A stretch of DNA of 64,000 nucleotides, taken from Halorussus halobius. Lineage in GTDB: Archaea; Halobacteriota; Halobacteria; Halobacteriales; Haladaptataceae. The stretch covers positions 1,116,001-1,180,000 of the forward strand of contig NZ_ML219773.1 in the NCBI RefSeq assembly GCF_004765805.1, in the 5' to 3' direction. The notes below the pieces were generated by a model. The model ran no database searches, was not told the DNA's origin, and was given only the letters and a program-made list of their open reading frames with translations. Made by a program: the position numbers and the translations under genes. Positions 34,431 to 40,775 of this stretch are shown here, in pieces (within the stretch, counting starts at the first letter, position 1; every line of letters starts with the position of its first letter).

Positions 34431-35495
34431 ATGACGACGGGAATCGTTCTCCTGAACTTCGGCGAGCCGGCCGAACCCACCCGTGAGCAGGTCGTCCCGT
34501 ATCTCGAACGCATCTTCCTGAACAACGCCTCGCTGGAGGACGCCGACACCGAGGCGGAGGCCCGCGAGCGCGCCAGCCAGTTGGCCCAGCGGCGCGCGCC
34601 CGGCCTCATCGAGGAGTACGAGGAGATCGGCGGGTCGCCGCTGAACCCGCAGGCCGAGGCCCAGGCCGAGGCGCTGGCCGACGAACTCGACGCCCGGGGC
34701 TACGACGTCGAGACCTACGTCGGGATGCAGTTCACCGAGCCGTTCGTCGACGACGCGGTCGGGGCCGCCCGCGAGGACGACGTCGACCAGGTGGTCGGCC
34801 TGCCGGTGTATCCCCTGTGTGGAGCCTCGACGACCGTGGCCGCGCTCGACGACCTGACCGACGCGGTCGCGGACCGCGAGTGGGACGTGCCGGTCGCCGA
34901 AATCACGGGCTGGCATCGTCACCCGACGTACAACGCGGTCCGGGCCGACAACGTCGGGGCGTTCGCCGCCGACCGCGACCTCGACCTGACCGACCCCGGG
35001 ACGGAACTGGTGTACTCGGCCCACGGCACGCCCAGCCACTACCTCGACGAGGGGAGCCGGTACGACACCTACGTCGAGGAGTTCTGCGAGGTCGTCGCCC
35101 GGAAGCTCGGAATCGAGGGCTACTCGCTGGGCTACCAGAACCACGAGAACCGCGACATCCCGTGGACCGAACCCGACGTCGAGGACGTCGTCGAGGACCT
35201 CGGCGACGACGAGTCGGTCGAGCGAATCGTGGTCGAACCGGTCAGCTTCATGCACGAGCAGAGCGAGACGCTGTCGGAACTCGACGACGAACTCCGCGAG
35301 GAGGCCGAAGCGGTCGGGCTCGACTTCTACCGCGTACCCGTCCCCCACGACGACGACCGCTTCCCGTCGGTGCTGGCCGACCTGGCCGAGCCGTTCGTCG
35401 GCGAGTTCGACCCCGGGTACTACCAGTTCCGACAGTGCCAGTGCGCGAGCGACCGGGACGCGATGTGCCTGAACGCGCCGACCGTCCCACGATGA
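34431..35495 (+). CDS. hemH: ferrochelatase (protoporphyrin or coproporphyrin type)
   Basis: A 354-residue ferrochelatase: TTGIVLLNFGEPAEPTREQV at the start, YSAHGTPSHYLDEG with the catalytic His, SLGYQNHENRDIPWTEPDVE, and VEPVSFMHEQSETLSELDDE. The C-terminus contains C336, C338 and C346 (CQCASDRDAMC) with an internal C130 (YPLCGAS). These resemble the ligands of [2Fe-2S]-containing ferrochelatases. The stop overlaps the start of hemG (ATGA). Whether it inserts iron into protoporphyrin or coproporphyrin cannot be read from sequence alone; see the findings. Confidence 0.92.
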   Translation: MTTGIVLLNFGEPAEPTREQVVPYLERIFLNNASLEDADTEAEARERASQLAQRRAPGLIEEYEEIGGSPLNPQAEAQAEALADELDARGYDVETYVGMQFTEPFVDDAVGAAREDDVDQVVGLPVYPLCGASTTVAALDDLTDAVADREWDVPVAEITGWHRHPTYNAVRADNVGAFAADRDLDLTDPGTELVYSAHGTPSHYLDEGSRYDTYVEEFCEVVARKLGIEGYSLGYQNHENRDIPWTEPDVEDVVEDLGDDESVERIVVEPVSFMHEQSETLSELDDELREEAEAVGLDFYRVPVPHDDDRFPSVLADLAEPFVGEFDPGYYQFRQCQCASDRDAMCLNAPTVPR

Positions 35496-36802
35496 CCGGG
35501 AAGACGGTCGGCATCGTCGGCGGCGGCATCACCGGATTGGCGCTGGCCCACTACCTCGACCGGCACGACGTCGACGTCGCCCTGTTCGAGGCAACGCCCG
35601 ACCCCGGGGGCGTGATCCGAAGCGGGCGCGTCGACGGGAGCGTGGTCGAGTGGGGGCCCCAGCGCGTGCGGCGGACCGACCGCATCGACGGGCTGATAGG
35701 CGACCTCGACCTCGAGAGCGAGGTCCGCACGGCCGCCCCCGACTTGCCGGTCTGCGTCTACGCCGACGGCGACCTCCATCCCGCGCCGTTCTCGCCGTCG
35801 GCGTTCGCGTCGACCGACCTGCTGTCGGCCGAAGCCAAGCGCGAGGTACTGGCCGAACCGTTCACCGAGCCCGCGAGCCCCGACGAGACGGCGGCGGAGT
35901 TGTTCGCCCGGAAGTTCGGCGCGGAGACCTACCGGAAGCTGCTCGGCCCGCTGTTCGGGGGCATCTACGGTTCGGACCCCGCCGAGATGCCGGTCGGGCA
36001 CGCGCTCTCGGGGCTGGTGGCACTCGAACGGCGCGACGGCAGCCTGCTGAAGACCGCCATCGGGCGGACGGCCGGGGGCCGCGACGCGCCGCCGGCCATC
36101 TCGTTCGACGACGGGCTCCAGCGACTCCCCGAGGCGCTCGCCGACGCCCACGCCGACGCGGTTCGGCTCGGGACGCCCGTCACGGCCGTCCGAGAGCGCG
36201 TCGGCGTCGACGAGCCCGGCGGGCCGACCTACGAACTGGAGACCGCCGAGGGTTCGACCGCCGTCGAGCAGGTCGTGTTGACCACGCGCGCCGACCTGAC
36301 TGCCGACCTGCTGGCCGACCTCGCGTCCGCGTCGGTCGGGTCGCTCCGAGAACTCACCTACAACCCGTTCGCGACGGCGTACCTCCGCGCGGACCTCGAG
36401 GGCGAGGGCGAGGTCGACCCGGCCGCGCTGGGCTACCAGGTCGGGTTCGACGCGGACCTCCGGACGCTTGGCGCGTCGTGGAACGCGAGCATGTTCGACC
36501 GGGACGTCTACAGCGTCTTCCTCGGCGGCATGCACGACCCGGAAGTGCTCGACGAGAGCGACGACCGCATCGGCGAGATCGCGGCCGCGGAGTTCGAGAC
36601 GGTGACGGGCGCGCCCGCGGAGGTCGTCGACGTCCACCGTCTCGAACGCGGGTTCCCGGCCTACGACGACTCGTGGGCGGCCCTCGACCGCGTGGACACC
36701 CCGACGGGCGTCCGGCTCGCGACCAACTACACCGCCCGGATGGGGGTGCCGAGCCGGATTCGAGAGGCCGCGTCGCTTGCCGAGGAACTGGCGGACTCGT
36801 AA
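35492..36802 (+). CDS. hemG: protoporphyrinogen/coproporphyrinogen oxidase, FAD type
   Basis: A 436-residue flavoprotein with the FAD motif VGIVGGGITGLALAHYLDRH (5-24) and ATPDPGGVIRSGRVDGSVVE as the second conserved stretch. Its middle region FGAETYRKLLGPLFGGIYGS and C-terminal ATNYTARMGVPSRIREAASL match the oxygen-dependent HemY-type oxidases. It oxidises protoporphyrinogen IX or coproporphyrinogen III, one step before or after iron insertion. It is co-translated with ferrochelatase. The coding region ends 134 bp before the CRISPR array. The gene name could equally be hemY or cgoX. Confidence 0.9.
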   Translation: MTGKTVGIVGGGITGLALAHYLDRHDVDVALFEATPDPGGVIRSGRVDGSVVEWGPQRVRRTDRIDGLIGDLDLESEVRTAAPDLPVCVYADGDLHPAPFSPSAFASTDLLSAEAKREVLAEPFTEPASPDETAAELFARKFGAETYRKLLGPLFGGIYGSDPAEMPVGHALSGLVALERRDGSLLKTAIGRTAGGRDAPPAISFDDGLQRLPEALADAHADAVRLGTPVTAVRERVGVDEPGGPTYELETAEGSTAVEQVVLTTRADLTADLLADLASASVGSLRELTYNPFATAYLRADLEGEGEVDPAALGYQVGFDADLRTLGASWNASMFDRDVYSVFLGGMHDPEVLDESDDRIGEIAAAEFETVTGAPAEVVDVHRLERGFPAYDDSWAALDRVDTPTGVRLATNYTARMGVPSRIREAASLAEELADS

Positions 36803-36935
36803 CAGCACGGGGTGCTCGCCCGCAGTCTTCGTGGACCTTTTTAAATTGTCTGTACGGCCCCGGTCCACGAATTCCGGCGTGGATTTGGGGCCGTGAGAAA
36901 GCTTTATTGGAGCGCTGGGCGAAATATCACCCCCT
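36803..36935 (+). promoter_or_regulatory. CRISPR leader
   Basis: This 133-bp stretch between hemG and the first repeat is relatively AT-rich for the region. TATA-like elements are CTTTTTAAATTG (about 36837-36848) and GCTTTATTGG (about 36901-36910). The second would start transcription about five bases ahead of repeat 1. Between them is a strong stem-loop, ACGGCCCC (36854-36861) with GGGGCCGT (36887-36894) and inner TCCACG/CGTGGA. It is judged a leader because the degenerate terminal repeat is at the other end. Confidence 0.65.
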
Positions 36936-38914
36936 GTCGCAGAACCCAGAAAAGCCGCGAAGGCATTGAAACGCGGCGGCTTCGGTCTCGACCAACTCGG
37001 AACCGGGTCGCAGAACCCAGAAAAGCCGCGAAGGCATTGAAACTTGGCACCATCTATGGTGTCCCTGTCGCTGAAACGTCGCAGAACCCAGAAAAGCCGC
37101 GAAGGCATTGAAACATTGATTCTGGGCCGTTCCCGTTCACGTACCGGGCGGTCGCAGAACCCAGAAAAGCCGCGAAGGCATTGAAACTGCGTTGCGAGAG
37201 CGTTAACGTCACGGCGGACTGTCGCAGAACCCAGAAAAGCCGCGAAGGCATTGAAACCGCTCCTAAGATGCCCACCGAGACCTTCCAGTATACCGTCGCA
37301 GAACCCAGAAAAGCCGCGAAGGCATTGAAACTTCTCGTCGGCGTCCTCTTCGTCGAGGACGACCGAGAGTCGCAGAACCCAGAAAAGCCGCGAAGGCATT
37401 GAAACTTCACCGCTCCGGTCGCGTCCATCTCCGCCCGACTGTCGCAGAACCCAGAAAAGCCGCGAAGGCATTGAAACGCCGATGCTTAGCCGGCTCCGCG
37501 ACCGCTACCGGCAGTGTCGCAGAACCCAGAAAAGCCGCGAAGGCATTGAAACCGCGAGGCGTGGATAGAGGCCGGCGGCTGGCAGGGGTCGCAGAACCCA
37601 GAAAAGCCGCGAAGGCATTGAAACGAGTAGCCGCTCCCGTGACTGCTGAACTCGTCCAAGACGTCGCAGAACCCAGAAAAGCCGCGAAGGCATTGAAACG
37701 TGACAGTCGCACCAAGGTTCTCGATCTCGTGAATGTCGCAGAACCCAGAAAAGCCGCGAAGGCATTGAAACGCGTTCGGGTCGACGTAATCACGCTCGAC
37801 CCGCTCCAGTCGCAGAACCCAGAAAAGCCGCGAAGGCATTGAAACTGACTGACCGCCGCCACTGAACCGTATGGTAGGGGGTCGCAGAACCCAGAAAAGC
37901 CGCGAAGGCATTGAAACTAGGGAACGCTCTTGTGAATACCCCAAACTTCGGAGTGTCGCAGAACCCAGAAAAGCCGCGAAGGCATTGAAACCGACGGATG
38001 TTGCGGTCAGCTCGGAGTGGGTCGCGTCGCAGAACCCAGAAAAGCCGCGAAGGCATTGAAACTGGAGGTCACGCCCCGACACGTCGTTCATGTTCGTGAG
38101 TCGCAGAACCCAGAAAAGCCGCGAAGGCATTGAAACAGGCCTGGCCCGACCCCGGACCGGAGGCTTCAGCCGATGTCGCAGAACCCAGAAAAGCCGCGAA
38201 GGCATTGAAACTGGGCCAAGACGTACCACGAGCGTCGCGGCCAGCACGGTCGCAGAACCCAGAAAAGCCGCGAAGGCATTGAAACACAAGGACACCCTCG
38301 GCGGCCACGTCGACCGCTCGGTCGCAGAACCCAGAAAAGCCGCGAAGGCATTGAAACAACTATCTGTTGCCGAGCCACATCGGTCTGCATAAAGTCGCAG
38401 AACCCAGAAAAGCCGCGAAGGCATTGAAACACGAGGTCGACGTCGCGGTCGAGGTCCTCGCACGCGTCGCAGAACCCAGAAAAGCCGCGAAGGCATTGAA
38501 ACTTTTCGACGAACGTTACTGACGCGTCGGGCGCGTGTCGCAGAACCCAGAAAAGCCGCGAAGGCATTGAAACCTTAGAAGCCGAGTTCGGCGGACTCAC
38601 GGACACGTCGGTCGCAGAACCCAGAAAAGCCGCGAAGGCATTGAAACGTTGCGAGGAGGGTTCGTCGTTGCATGCCGGTATCTGTCGCAGAACCCAGAAA
38701 AGCCGCGAAGGCATTGAAACGTGTTGCTCGTGTCGATGAAGTTGTTCGCGAGACCGAGTCGCAGAACCCAGAAAAGCCGCGAAGGCATTGAAACAGGTCG
38801 CGGGCTACCTCTGTGGCGAGTGCCGGCAGTCGCAGAACCCAGAAAAGCCGCGAAGGCATTGAAACGACGCGACGGTCGAGAAGGTCGAGGTCCGCTTCTA
38901 CTGTCGCAGAACCC
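36936..38914 (+). CRISPR. CRISPR array, 27 spacers, 37-bp repeat, no adjacent cas genes
   Basis: There are 27 intact repeats, apparently identical, of 37 bp each, beginning GTCGCAGAACCCAGAAAAGC and ending GGCATTGAAAC. A 28th truncated repeat at 38903 keeps only the first 12 bases. The 27 spacers are all different and 33-38 bp long (period about 73 bp). The ATTGAAAC end gives the usual 8-nt crRNA handle if transcribed on the plus strand from the leader at the hemG side. The repeat has only a weak internal stem (GCC/GGC). The repeat length and end fit types I-D or III more than the 30-bp type I-B repeats typical of haloarchaea; this is inference. cas genes must be elsewhere. Confidence 0.97.
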
Positions 38915-38957
38915 TGGCGAAATACTCGAGAAGTAGCAAAATCAGACGCTCGGAGCC
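38903..38957. other. degenerate terminal repeat and CRISPR trailer
   Basis: The sequence GTCGCAGAACCC is followed by the unrelated TGGCGAAATACTCGAGAAG, which abuts the hemE stop codon within 45 bp. This marks the oldest, leader-distal end and thereby the array orientation. Confidence 0.8.
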
Positions 38958-39968
38958 CTACCACTCCCACTGCTTGGCGGTCTCGACGAACGCCGCCGCG
39001 TTCTCGACCGGCGTCTCGCGGTCGATGCCGTGGCCGAGGTTCAGGATGTGACCTTTCGGGCCGGCCTTCTCGATGACTTCCGCGGTCTTTTCGCGCACGA
39101 ACGCCTCGTCGCCCAGCAGGTACGAGGGGTCGAGGTTGCCCTGCACGGGCATCTCGCCCAGTTGCTCGCGGGCGTCGCGCAGGTCCACCGTCCAGTCGAG
39201 GCTGACCACGTCCGCGCCCGAGTCGGCCAGCAGGTCGAGTTTGCCGCCTGCGTTGCGCGCGAAGACGATGGTCGGCACGTCGCAGGCCGCGAAGATGCGG
39301 CGGTGGAGCGGCTGGAGGAACTCCCGGTAGTCGTCGGGCGTCAACAGGCCGGCGTAGGTGTCGAACAGCTGGACCACGTCCGCGCCCGCCTCGACCTGGA
39401 ACTCTAGGTAGTCGACCACGACGTCGGCGAACCGCTCCAGTAGCGCGCGGAACGCGTCGGGGTGTTCGACCCGGAAGCGCCGGACCGGCGTCTGCTTGCG
39501 CCCGGCGGGTTCGCCCGCGACGGCGTAGCACGCCAGCGTGAACGGCCCGCCCGCGAAACCGACGATGCTGGTCCGGTCGCCGACGCTGTGCTGGAGGCGT
39601 TCGAGCAGCGCGCCCACGTAGTCGAGTTCCTCGCGCACGTCGGCGTGGTCGGCGGGAACGTCGTCCGGTCCGCTCACGGGGTTCTCGACCACGGGACCCA
39701 CGCCGCTCTCGATGTGGTAGTCCAGCCCCAGCGGTTCCAGCACGGTGAGGATGTCCGAGAACATCACCAGTCCGTCGGGTTCGAACCGCTCCCACGGCAG
39801 GAGGGTGATGCGCTCGGCCACTTCGGGCGTCGAGATGGCCTCCCGGAAGGTGTAGTCCTCGCGAATCTCGCGGTACTCGGGGATGTACCGCCCGGCCTGG
39901 CGCATCAGCCAGACCGGCGGTCGCTCGGTTCGCTCGCCGCGCGCGGCCCGCACGAGAAGGTCGCTCAT
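38958..39968 (-). CDS. hemE: uroporphyrinogen decarboxylase
   Basis: A 336-residue UroD with the signature regions RPPVWLMRQAGRYIPEYREI (16-35), the catalytic Asp region VMFSDILTVLEPLGLDYHIE, GFAGGPFTLACYAVAG, and QLFDTYAGLLTPDDYREFLQ. Its C-terminus LNLGHGIDRETPVENAAAFV is typical. It decarboxylates uroporphyrinogen III to coproporphyrinogen III. It lies convergent to the array and, with hemH and hemG, forms a heme cluster interrupted by the CRISPR locus. The start ATG at 39968 faces the HNH gene. Confidence 0.94.
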   Translation of the reverse strand: MSDLLVRAARGERTERPPVWLMRQAGRYIPEYREIREDYTFREAISTPEVAERITLLPWERFEPDGLVMFSDILTVLEPLGLDYHIESGVGPVVENPVSGPDDVPADHADVREELDYVGALLERLQHSVGDRTSIVGFAGGPFTLACYAVAGEPAGRKQTPVRRFRVEHPDAFRALLERFADVVVDYLEFQVEAGADVVQLFDTYAGLLTPDDYREFLQPLHRRIFAACDVPTIVFARNAGGKLDLLADSGADVVSLDWTVDLRDAREQLGEMPVQGNLDPSYLLGDEAFVREKTAEVIEKAGPKGHILNLGHGIDRETPVENAAAFVETAKQWEW

Positions 39969-40039: not shown

Positions 40040-40100
40040 GGAGAACAAGTATTTTTGATCCGGCGTCGTGAATCGGCGACGGTACTCTCAGAGGCCATAC
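40040..40100 (+). promoter_or_regulatory. promoter of the HNH gene
   Basis: AAGTATTTTTGATC (about 40047-40060) is an AT-rich TATA region. Expected transcription start is about 25 bp downstream, before the ATG at 40101. This favours that ATG over the in-frame GTG at 40068. Confidence 0.45.
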
Positions 40101-40775
40101 ATGACGTGGAAAGACGACGTGTACGTCGAGTTGCTTCGGTACACCGAGGACAACGAGTCCGAGGAGTTCACGCTCGGGGAGTTCTACGAACACGCGGAGG
40201 ACCGGCTGGCGGCCAAGCATCCCGACAACGACAACGTGCGGGCGAAGATTCGCCAACTCCTCCAGCGGCTACGGGACGACGGGCAACTGTCGTTCGTCGA
40301 CGACGCCGGAACGTATCGGCTCGTCGGACTCGACGACGGGTTTACGAGCGAGTACGGAGTGACGGAGGACGGCGTGACCGAGCGGACGGTCCAGACGACG
40401 CGGTATCCGATGCCCCAGTCGGTCCGCGTCGAAGCCCTCAGGCGGTACGACAAGACCTGTCTGTTGACCGACGTCGATCTGCCGGCGTTGTTGGACGCCG
40501 CCCACGTCGTGCCGCGCTCGGAGTACCCCTCCGAGGTCCGAAATCCGGAGAACGTGATGGTGCTGAACAAGCTCCATCACGAGGCGTTCGACCGGGAGCT
40601 GTTCACCATCGACACCGACTACCGCGTGCGAGTCGACCCGTCGCTCTCGACCGACAGCGAACTCCTCGACGGCTCGCTGATGGCGACGGACGGTGAGCGG
40701 GTCAGTTTCCCGGCATCGGCGTCGCTCGACAGGGACCTCCTCGCGGAACGGAACGCCGGGCTGGCGTGGGTCTGA
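40101..40775 (+). CDS. HNH endonuclease-like protein with N-terminal winged-helix domain
   Basis: A 224-residue protein. Residues 1-75 form a winged-helix-like domain (TWKDDVYVELLRYTEDNESE to GQLSFVDDAGTYRLVGLDD) similar to the DNA-reading domain of DpnI/Dam-replacing proteins. Residues about 105-200 are an HNH_2-type nuclease: CLLTDVDLPALLDAAHVVPR with H135, then NPENVMVLNKLHHEAFDREL with N151 and H159/H160. The HNH triad thus appears intact. It may cut foreign or modified DNA. It is next to hemE and the CRISPR array, but no methylase or cas gene accompanies it, so its place in defence is unproven. Alternative start GTG at 40068 adds eleven residues. Confidence 0.85.
   Translation: MTWKDDVYVELLRYTEDNESEEFTLGEFYEHAEDRLAAKHPDNDNVRAKIRQLLQRLRDDGQLSFVDDAGTYRLVGLDDGFTSEYGVTEDGVTERTVQTTRYPMPQSVRVEALRRYDKTCLLTDVDLPALLDAAHVVPRSEYPSEVRNPENVMVLNKLHHEAFDRELFTIDTDYRVRVDPSLSTDSELLDGSLMATDGERVSFPASASLDRDLLAERNAGLAWV

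Follow-up and report, generated by a model that had tools for sequence, protein, structure and literature searches.

A 27-spacer CRISPR array between hemG and hemE of Halorussus halobius, very probably served in trans by a resident type I-D system

The stretch of DNA analysed here, which we call the window, comprises 64,000 nucleotides of Halorussus halobius and corresponds to C1:1116001-1180000 of a 3.93-Mb draft genome in 17 contigs. In it, hemH (34431-35495, plus strand; ferrochelatase Pfam) lies upstream of hemG, the protoporphyrinogen oxidase gene (35492..36802, plus strand; Pfam amine oxidoreductase), whose H. caseinilyticus ortholog is annotated hemG. To the right, hemE, encoding uroporphyrinogen decarboxylase, occupies 38958..39968 on the minus strand (Pfam URO-D, 8.8e-108). 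Coordinates and strands thus bear out an earlier note on this DNA, which had hemG and hemE converging on a CRISPR array. The array reads on the plus strand and consists of 27 letter-identical copies of the 37-nt repeat GTCGCAGAACCCAGAAAAGCCGCGAAGGCATTGAAAC with 26 enclosed spacers (36936..38865), followed by the 27th and oldest spacer (38866..38902), which is closed by a truncated 28th repeat of 12 nt, GTCGCAGAACCC (38903..38914). The spacers are 33-38 nt long and each is unique, so that the 27 spacers and identical 37-bp repeats described earlier are confirmed by count. Array and leader together span 36827-38914; the interval 36803-39968 given in the earlier note also covers the leader and hemE. 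No further repeat copy was found on either strand of the 64-kb window. Genome-wide, the repeat pattern gave 74 matches and the same pattern reversed gave none, which excludes a chance origin of the matches. Of additional note, the gene adjoining hemE at 40068-40775 encodes an HNH endonuclease that also has a winged-helix domain of the DpnI type (Pfam DpnI_C and HNH_2), possibly a methyl-dependent restriction enzyme.

The leader takes up about 110 bp before the first repeat (36827..36935, plus strand). It is homologous to the leaders of two arrays, A and B, that lie beside cas genes elsewhere in the genome (95% and 76% identity, respectively) and to 14 other leaders, and the set of 17 distinct leaders comes from five Halorussus genomes and one Salinibaculum plasmid. 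Directly before the repeat is a junction block, ATATCACCCCCT (36924..36935, plus strand), which is near-invariant among the aligned leaders as (t)TCACCCCC; this block, usually TCACCCCC(T), is common to the 17 leaders and is expected to be the site of spacer integration. A candidate promoter of the array, the BRE/TATA-like GAGAAAGCTTTATTGG (36895..36910, plus strand), is proposed from its position and composition and is partly conserved across the leaders. The leader-distal part holds an inverted repeat, TTCGTGGACC-24 nt-GGTCCACGAA (36828..36871), a candidate site for a regulator or for adaptation, whose 24-nt centre begins with the TATA-like TTTTTAAA. Its spacing is constant in 17/17 leaders, with 7-10 of 10 arm positions paired; in the Salinibaculum leader both arms are changed (TTCATCGACC/GGTTGATGAA). 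When the right arm was slid by 1-12 positions as a control, the mean fell to about 1-4 matches. The pattern with 8-bp arms occurs at only two sites in the 3.93-Mb genome, namely in the window leader and in that of array B; the latter is adjoined by csa3, which encodes a CARF regulator (TIGR01884). In the I-A system of S. islandicus, Csa3a binds to a leader-distal motif and helps in taking up spacers (PMC9456107), and in M. mazei the CARF protein MM_0565 binds the 5' part of a conserved leader (PMC7465815). These systems share with ours a conserved element in the distal part of the leader and a locus that includes csa3, although they are of another subtype and we infer binding in Halorussus from the likeness. 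By this analogy, the inverted repeat is possibly a Csa3 binding site or operator.

The repeat itself carries a mini-stem, GCC-loop-GGC, followed directly by the 8-nt handle ATTGAAAC (36954..36972, plus strand, in the first repeat, and the same in every repeat). This GCC-5nt-GGC arrangement is kept in 18 related repeat variants, in which the outer pair of the 3-bp stem is G-C in nine and C-G in nine, with mismatches in 0/18. None of 500 shuffles equalled this covariation, and it was lost when the partner position was slid. The pair varies in several backgrounds, including within single arrays of H. pelagicus and of the congener G017; the other two of the three pairs are invariant, and the support is that of one covarying pair. 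It is this covariation and not energy that speaks for the stem: the MFE structure computed for the first repeat contains it, and z-scores for single repeats were not significant. A covarying stem before the handle would fit processing by Cas6, as expected. The Cas6d of type I-D systems leaves crRNA handles of 8 and 29 nt (PMC10212523), and a cut after the stem would divide the 37-nt repeat of the window into 8 + 29 nt, exactly these lengths.

A complete type I-D operon, cas6-cas10d-cas7/csc2-cas5/csc1-cas3-cas4-cas1d-cas2, lies on contig C3 (276240-284880), and its products match the I-D profiles for Cas6d, Cas10d, Csc2/Cas7d, Csc1/Cas5d, Cas3d, Cas4, Cas1d and Cas2. It is situated between the two arrays mentioned above. 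Array A, just downstream of cas2 (C3:285005-287681), has 37 exact repeats of the window type and one degenerate repeat; array B (C3:274591-275294) is on the other strand and has 10 repeats. In array B, only the oldest full repeat is of the type found in the window and in array A, and the other nine have GAG instead of GCG, which suggests that its repeat changed while the array grew. Four features tie the window array to this system: its repeat is the identical 37-mer of cas-adjacent array A, its leader is homologous to the leader of that array, a stem directly precedes the handle (a predicted Cas6d processing site), and the cognate cas10d, csc2, csc1, cas3, cas6, cas1d, cas2 and cas4 all stand in one operon. 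The match to type I-D explains the window repeat fully. The guess of type I-D in the earlier note was right, and the cas locus and second array with the same repeat that it proposed to seek in the full genome are both on C3. Genome-wide searches for cas1, cas6 and cas7d placed every match outside the window, which bears out the view that no cas gene is near and that the effector acts in trans. The array is therefore an orphan by position, as had been claimed, but not by function, the I-D operon of C3 being its cognate. Apart from the I-D system, the genome encodes an I-B system (C1, near 520 kb) that has a cas1b, a cas7b and a cas3 to itself; its repeat (GCTTCAACCCCACGAGGGTACATCTGGAAC or the complement) is 30 nt long and different from that of the window, so that the array is not I-B, again as the note had it. 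In that I-B array (25 copies of the 30-nt repeat at 11107-12722 of C1:511000-530000), two successive spacer-repeat units are identical, a tandem spacer duplication. The assembly is a draft with an estimated contamination of 5.6%, and it has the window and the I-D cas locus on separate contigs; since the leader and repeat shared by the two contigs are absent from most congeners, they argue that both belong to one organism.

Based on the identical repeat, the near-identical leader and the presence of a complete I-D operon in the same genome, we conclude that the window array is very probably a third array of the resident I-D system, served in trans. It is almost certainly ordinary in kind, a remote outpost of a known I-D system, and it is probably functional. 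From what the sequence provides (identical repeats, a near-identical leader, a complete operon and a covarying stem), we infer transcription, processing, interference and adaptation. The leader promoter would transcribe the array, and Cas6d from the C3 locus would cleave the repeats behind the GCC/GGC mini-stem and so give each crRNA the 8-nt 5' handle AUUGAAAC. The crRNAs would then be loaded into the I-D Cascade (Cas10d-Csc2-Csc1), which together with Cas3 would attack invading DNA. New spacers would be added at the leader end by Cas4-Cas1d-Cas2, recognising the junction as they would at the cas-adjacent array. The system resembles the type I-D systems of Synechocystis and Saccharolobus (PMC10212523) in having the same set from cas6, cas10d, cas7(csc2) and cas5(csc1) to cas3, cas4, cas1d and cas2 in the genome, a 37-nt repeat in which a stem-loop precedes the 8-nt 5' handle, and spacers of about 35 nt; it differs in that the window array is on another contig than the cas genes, and its leader of about 110 bp with an inverted repeat contrasts with cyanobacterial I-D leaders of 202-220 bp with motifs I-III. 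Remote or orphan arrays served in trans have been described (PMC8616872, PMC9071438), which likewise have a leader, no adjacent cas genes and cognate machinery elsewhere; the window array differs from them in its 27 spacers, its lack of decay and a leader nearly identical to the cas-adjacent one.

Two other readings of the array's state need to be weighed. It could be a decaying or inert orphan, intact in appearance and no longer transcribed or extended. Its distance from the cas genes and the truncated last repeat would suit such a relic, and relic arrays do exist in the genus: in H. caseinilyticus, four replicons together carry five distinct I-D leader-array loci, and the genome of this species holds no detectable I-D cas7 (Csc2), cas1d or second cas6. 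The one cas1 and one cas6 of that genome stand about 11 kb from each other on its contig C4 and are most likely those of its I-B system; H. caseinilyticus is thus a natural case of I-D arrays that outlive or lack their machinery. In the window, however, all 27 repeats are perfect and none of the 27 spacers occurs twice, the intact leader hardly differs from its cas-adjacent counterpart, the genome has the cognate cas genes, and truncated or degenerate terminal repeats occur in the cas-adjacent arrays as well. We therefore regard an inert array as distinctly unlikely; perfect repeats and an intact leader make recent activity of the window array plausible. The second reading takes up the foreign array suggested in the earlier note, here brought by a mobile element and without machinery in the genome to serve it; it is very improbable indeed. 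I-D cas-array loci and lone leader-arrays do occur on plasmids in the genus, but the repeat is identical and the leader 95% identical to those of the genome's own I-D locus, the interval between the array and the hem genes holds no mobile-element gene, and the cognate cas locus on C3 contradicts it. A plasmid-borne case is the I-D locus of H. pelagicus (NZ_CP035122.1), which resembles that of H. halobius in having csa3 and a cas6...cas2 operon flanked by two arrays, csa3 adjoining a leader, and a homologous leader and repeat; it differs in lying on a 58-kb plasmid, and its Cas7d is of another branch (matched by TIGR03157, not PDLC02047). On this plasmid the complete I-D system stands beside an orc1/cdc6 replication gene, and a partial second cas1 with a stop is found at about 32.5 kb.

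As for what a trans-served array would act on, spacer 1 of the window and spacer 19 of array A are identical at 22/23 nt (96%), which suggests that both arrays have taken spacers from related invaders. A further match, of about 90% over about 30 nt, links spacer 16 to genes for tyrosine recombinases (phage integrases) in two haloarchaeal genomes, at the same codons in both; the integrase domain was confirmed by Pfam in one of the two. These two observations fit a defence against mobile elements. The phage, plasmid and viral sets searched contained no exact or convincing protospacer at which the GTN/GTH PAM of type I-D could be looked for, four pattern scans of viral contigs gave no matches, and the genome itself contained no convincing self-target of the window spacers. 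A degenerate pattern made from spacer 1 and A-19 hit four viral contigs; we set these hits aside, as their reading frames differ and about 1-2 matches would be expected by chance on our estimate, and a stricter version of the pattern gave 0 matches in viral contigs. Matches in phages of Gordonia, Microbacterium and Streptomyces (E 0.2-7), obtained with the array, were dismissed as GC-rich chance matches. In other haloarchaeal genomes, searched with all spacers except spacer 21, the weak matches of spacers 6, 7, 19 and 27 fell in unrelated host genes or low-complexity sequence.

How the array came to lie among heme genes can be approached from the relatives. The hemG-hemE gap was readable in 15 congeners, of which H. 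caseinilyticus alone has an I-D array there; its absence from the other 14 supports the insertion put forward earlier, at a site that is variable, the position not being occupied in all relatives. The gap ranges from 94 bp in G016, where it is essentially empty, to 6.8 kb. In G002, G003, G004 (H. pelagicus), G007 and G014 it holds genes for a protein family of secreted type, about 420 aa long (shorter in G014), and in G008 and G017 related ORFs that are 69% identical. The hemG-hemE gap is thus a variable, permissive site that is filled differently in each relative. The hemE of the G014 assembly is broken: its two parts are read in different frames, and there is an in-frame TAG. The array of H. 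caseinilyticus (NZ_CP119810.1, ~199148-199446) is at the same hemG-hemE position and shares a related 37-nt repeat and a homologous leader with the same inverted repeat; it differs in having only 4 repeats and a truncated one, a leader 78% identical to that of the window, and a genome in which no I-D cas genes were detected.

Since the gap is permissive and its contents differ from relative to relative, we favour a copy-insertion: most likely, a leader and repeat were copied from a resident I-D array into the gap. In principle, the window array could be the original and array A the copy. A possible, though somewhat doubtful, alternative that concerns origin and not function is an ancestral hem-site array, lost in most lineages, with its leader and repeats homogenised with the cas-adjacent array by gene conversion. 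It would account for the I-D array at the same intergenic site in H. caseinilyticus, a member of another clade, and for the left arm of the window inverted repeat and the ACGAATT after the right arm, which agree with the H. caseinilyticus hem leader and not with array A; gene conversion could also give the same pattern of leader similarity. Against it stands the FastTree tree of the hemHGE proteins, which puts the two species with a hem-site array into separate clades; the sister of H. halobius, G002, has no array at hemG-hemE, so that two arrivals (2 steps by parsimony) are simpler than one gain and about five losses. Moreover, G002 and others carry unrelated genes in the gap, the two hem-site arrays have no spacer in common, and leaders group mainly by genome: 95% between window and array A, and 83-85% between the H. 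caseinilyticus hem leader and its nearest own copies, versus 78% between the two hem sites. A 9-bp direct repeat, GGCGAAATA, with one copy in the leader and the other beyond the last repeat, was considered as a target-site duplication; it is probably a coincidence, because the right copy resembles GGGCGAAATTCTC in the uninterrupted intergenic sequence of G016 and the left copy belongs to leader sequence that array A also has.

Taken together, an array that seemed to be without an effector resolves, with high probability, into a trans-served I-D array, and the material forms a comparison set in which one leader type occurs at cas-adjacent, remote and cas-less locations within one genus. The leader inverted repeat and the five cas-less I-D arrays of H. 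caseinilyticus make two questions accessible to experiment: how a remote leader is marked out for the addition of spacers, and what keeps arrays in a genome once their cas genes are gone. A speculative extension, which we consider rather unlikely, is that the haloarchaeal I-D leader-plus-repeat is a small dispersing cassette, independent of cas, that repeatedly lands at permissive convergent sites like hemG-hemE and is kept even without I-D cas genes, and that its inverted repeat would be a docking site for Csa3 through which Cas1-Cas2 is recruited to remote copies. A leader-repeat pattern scan of the genome contig collection gave no matches. In G017 (C1:3219500-3239000), the arrays flanking the I-D operon have leaders that are 95% identical and repeats that differ; here leaders seem to have been homogenised independently of repeats. 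Lastly, two H. caseinilyticus replicons each contain the same leader-array twice, with identical spacers and flanks: NZ_CP119811.1 at 26442 and 168751 (142 kb apart) and NZ_CP119812.1 at 17432 and 133882 (116 kb apart). Such a pattern may come from large duplications or from assemblies that run past the true length of a smaller circular plasmid.
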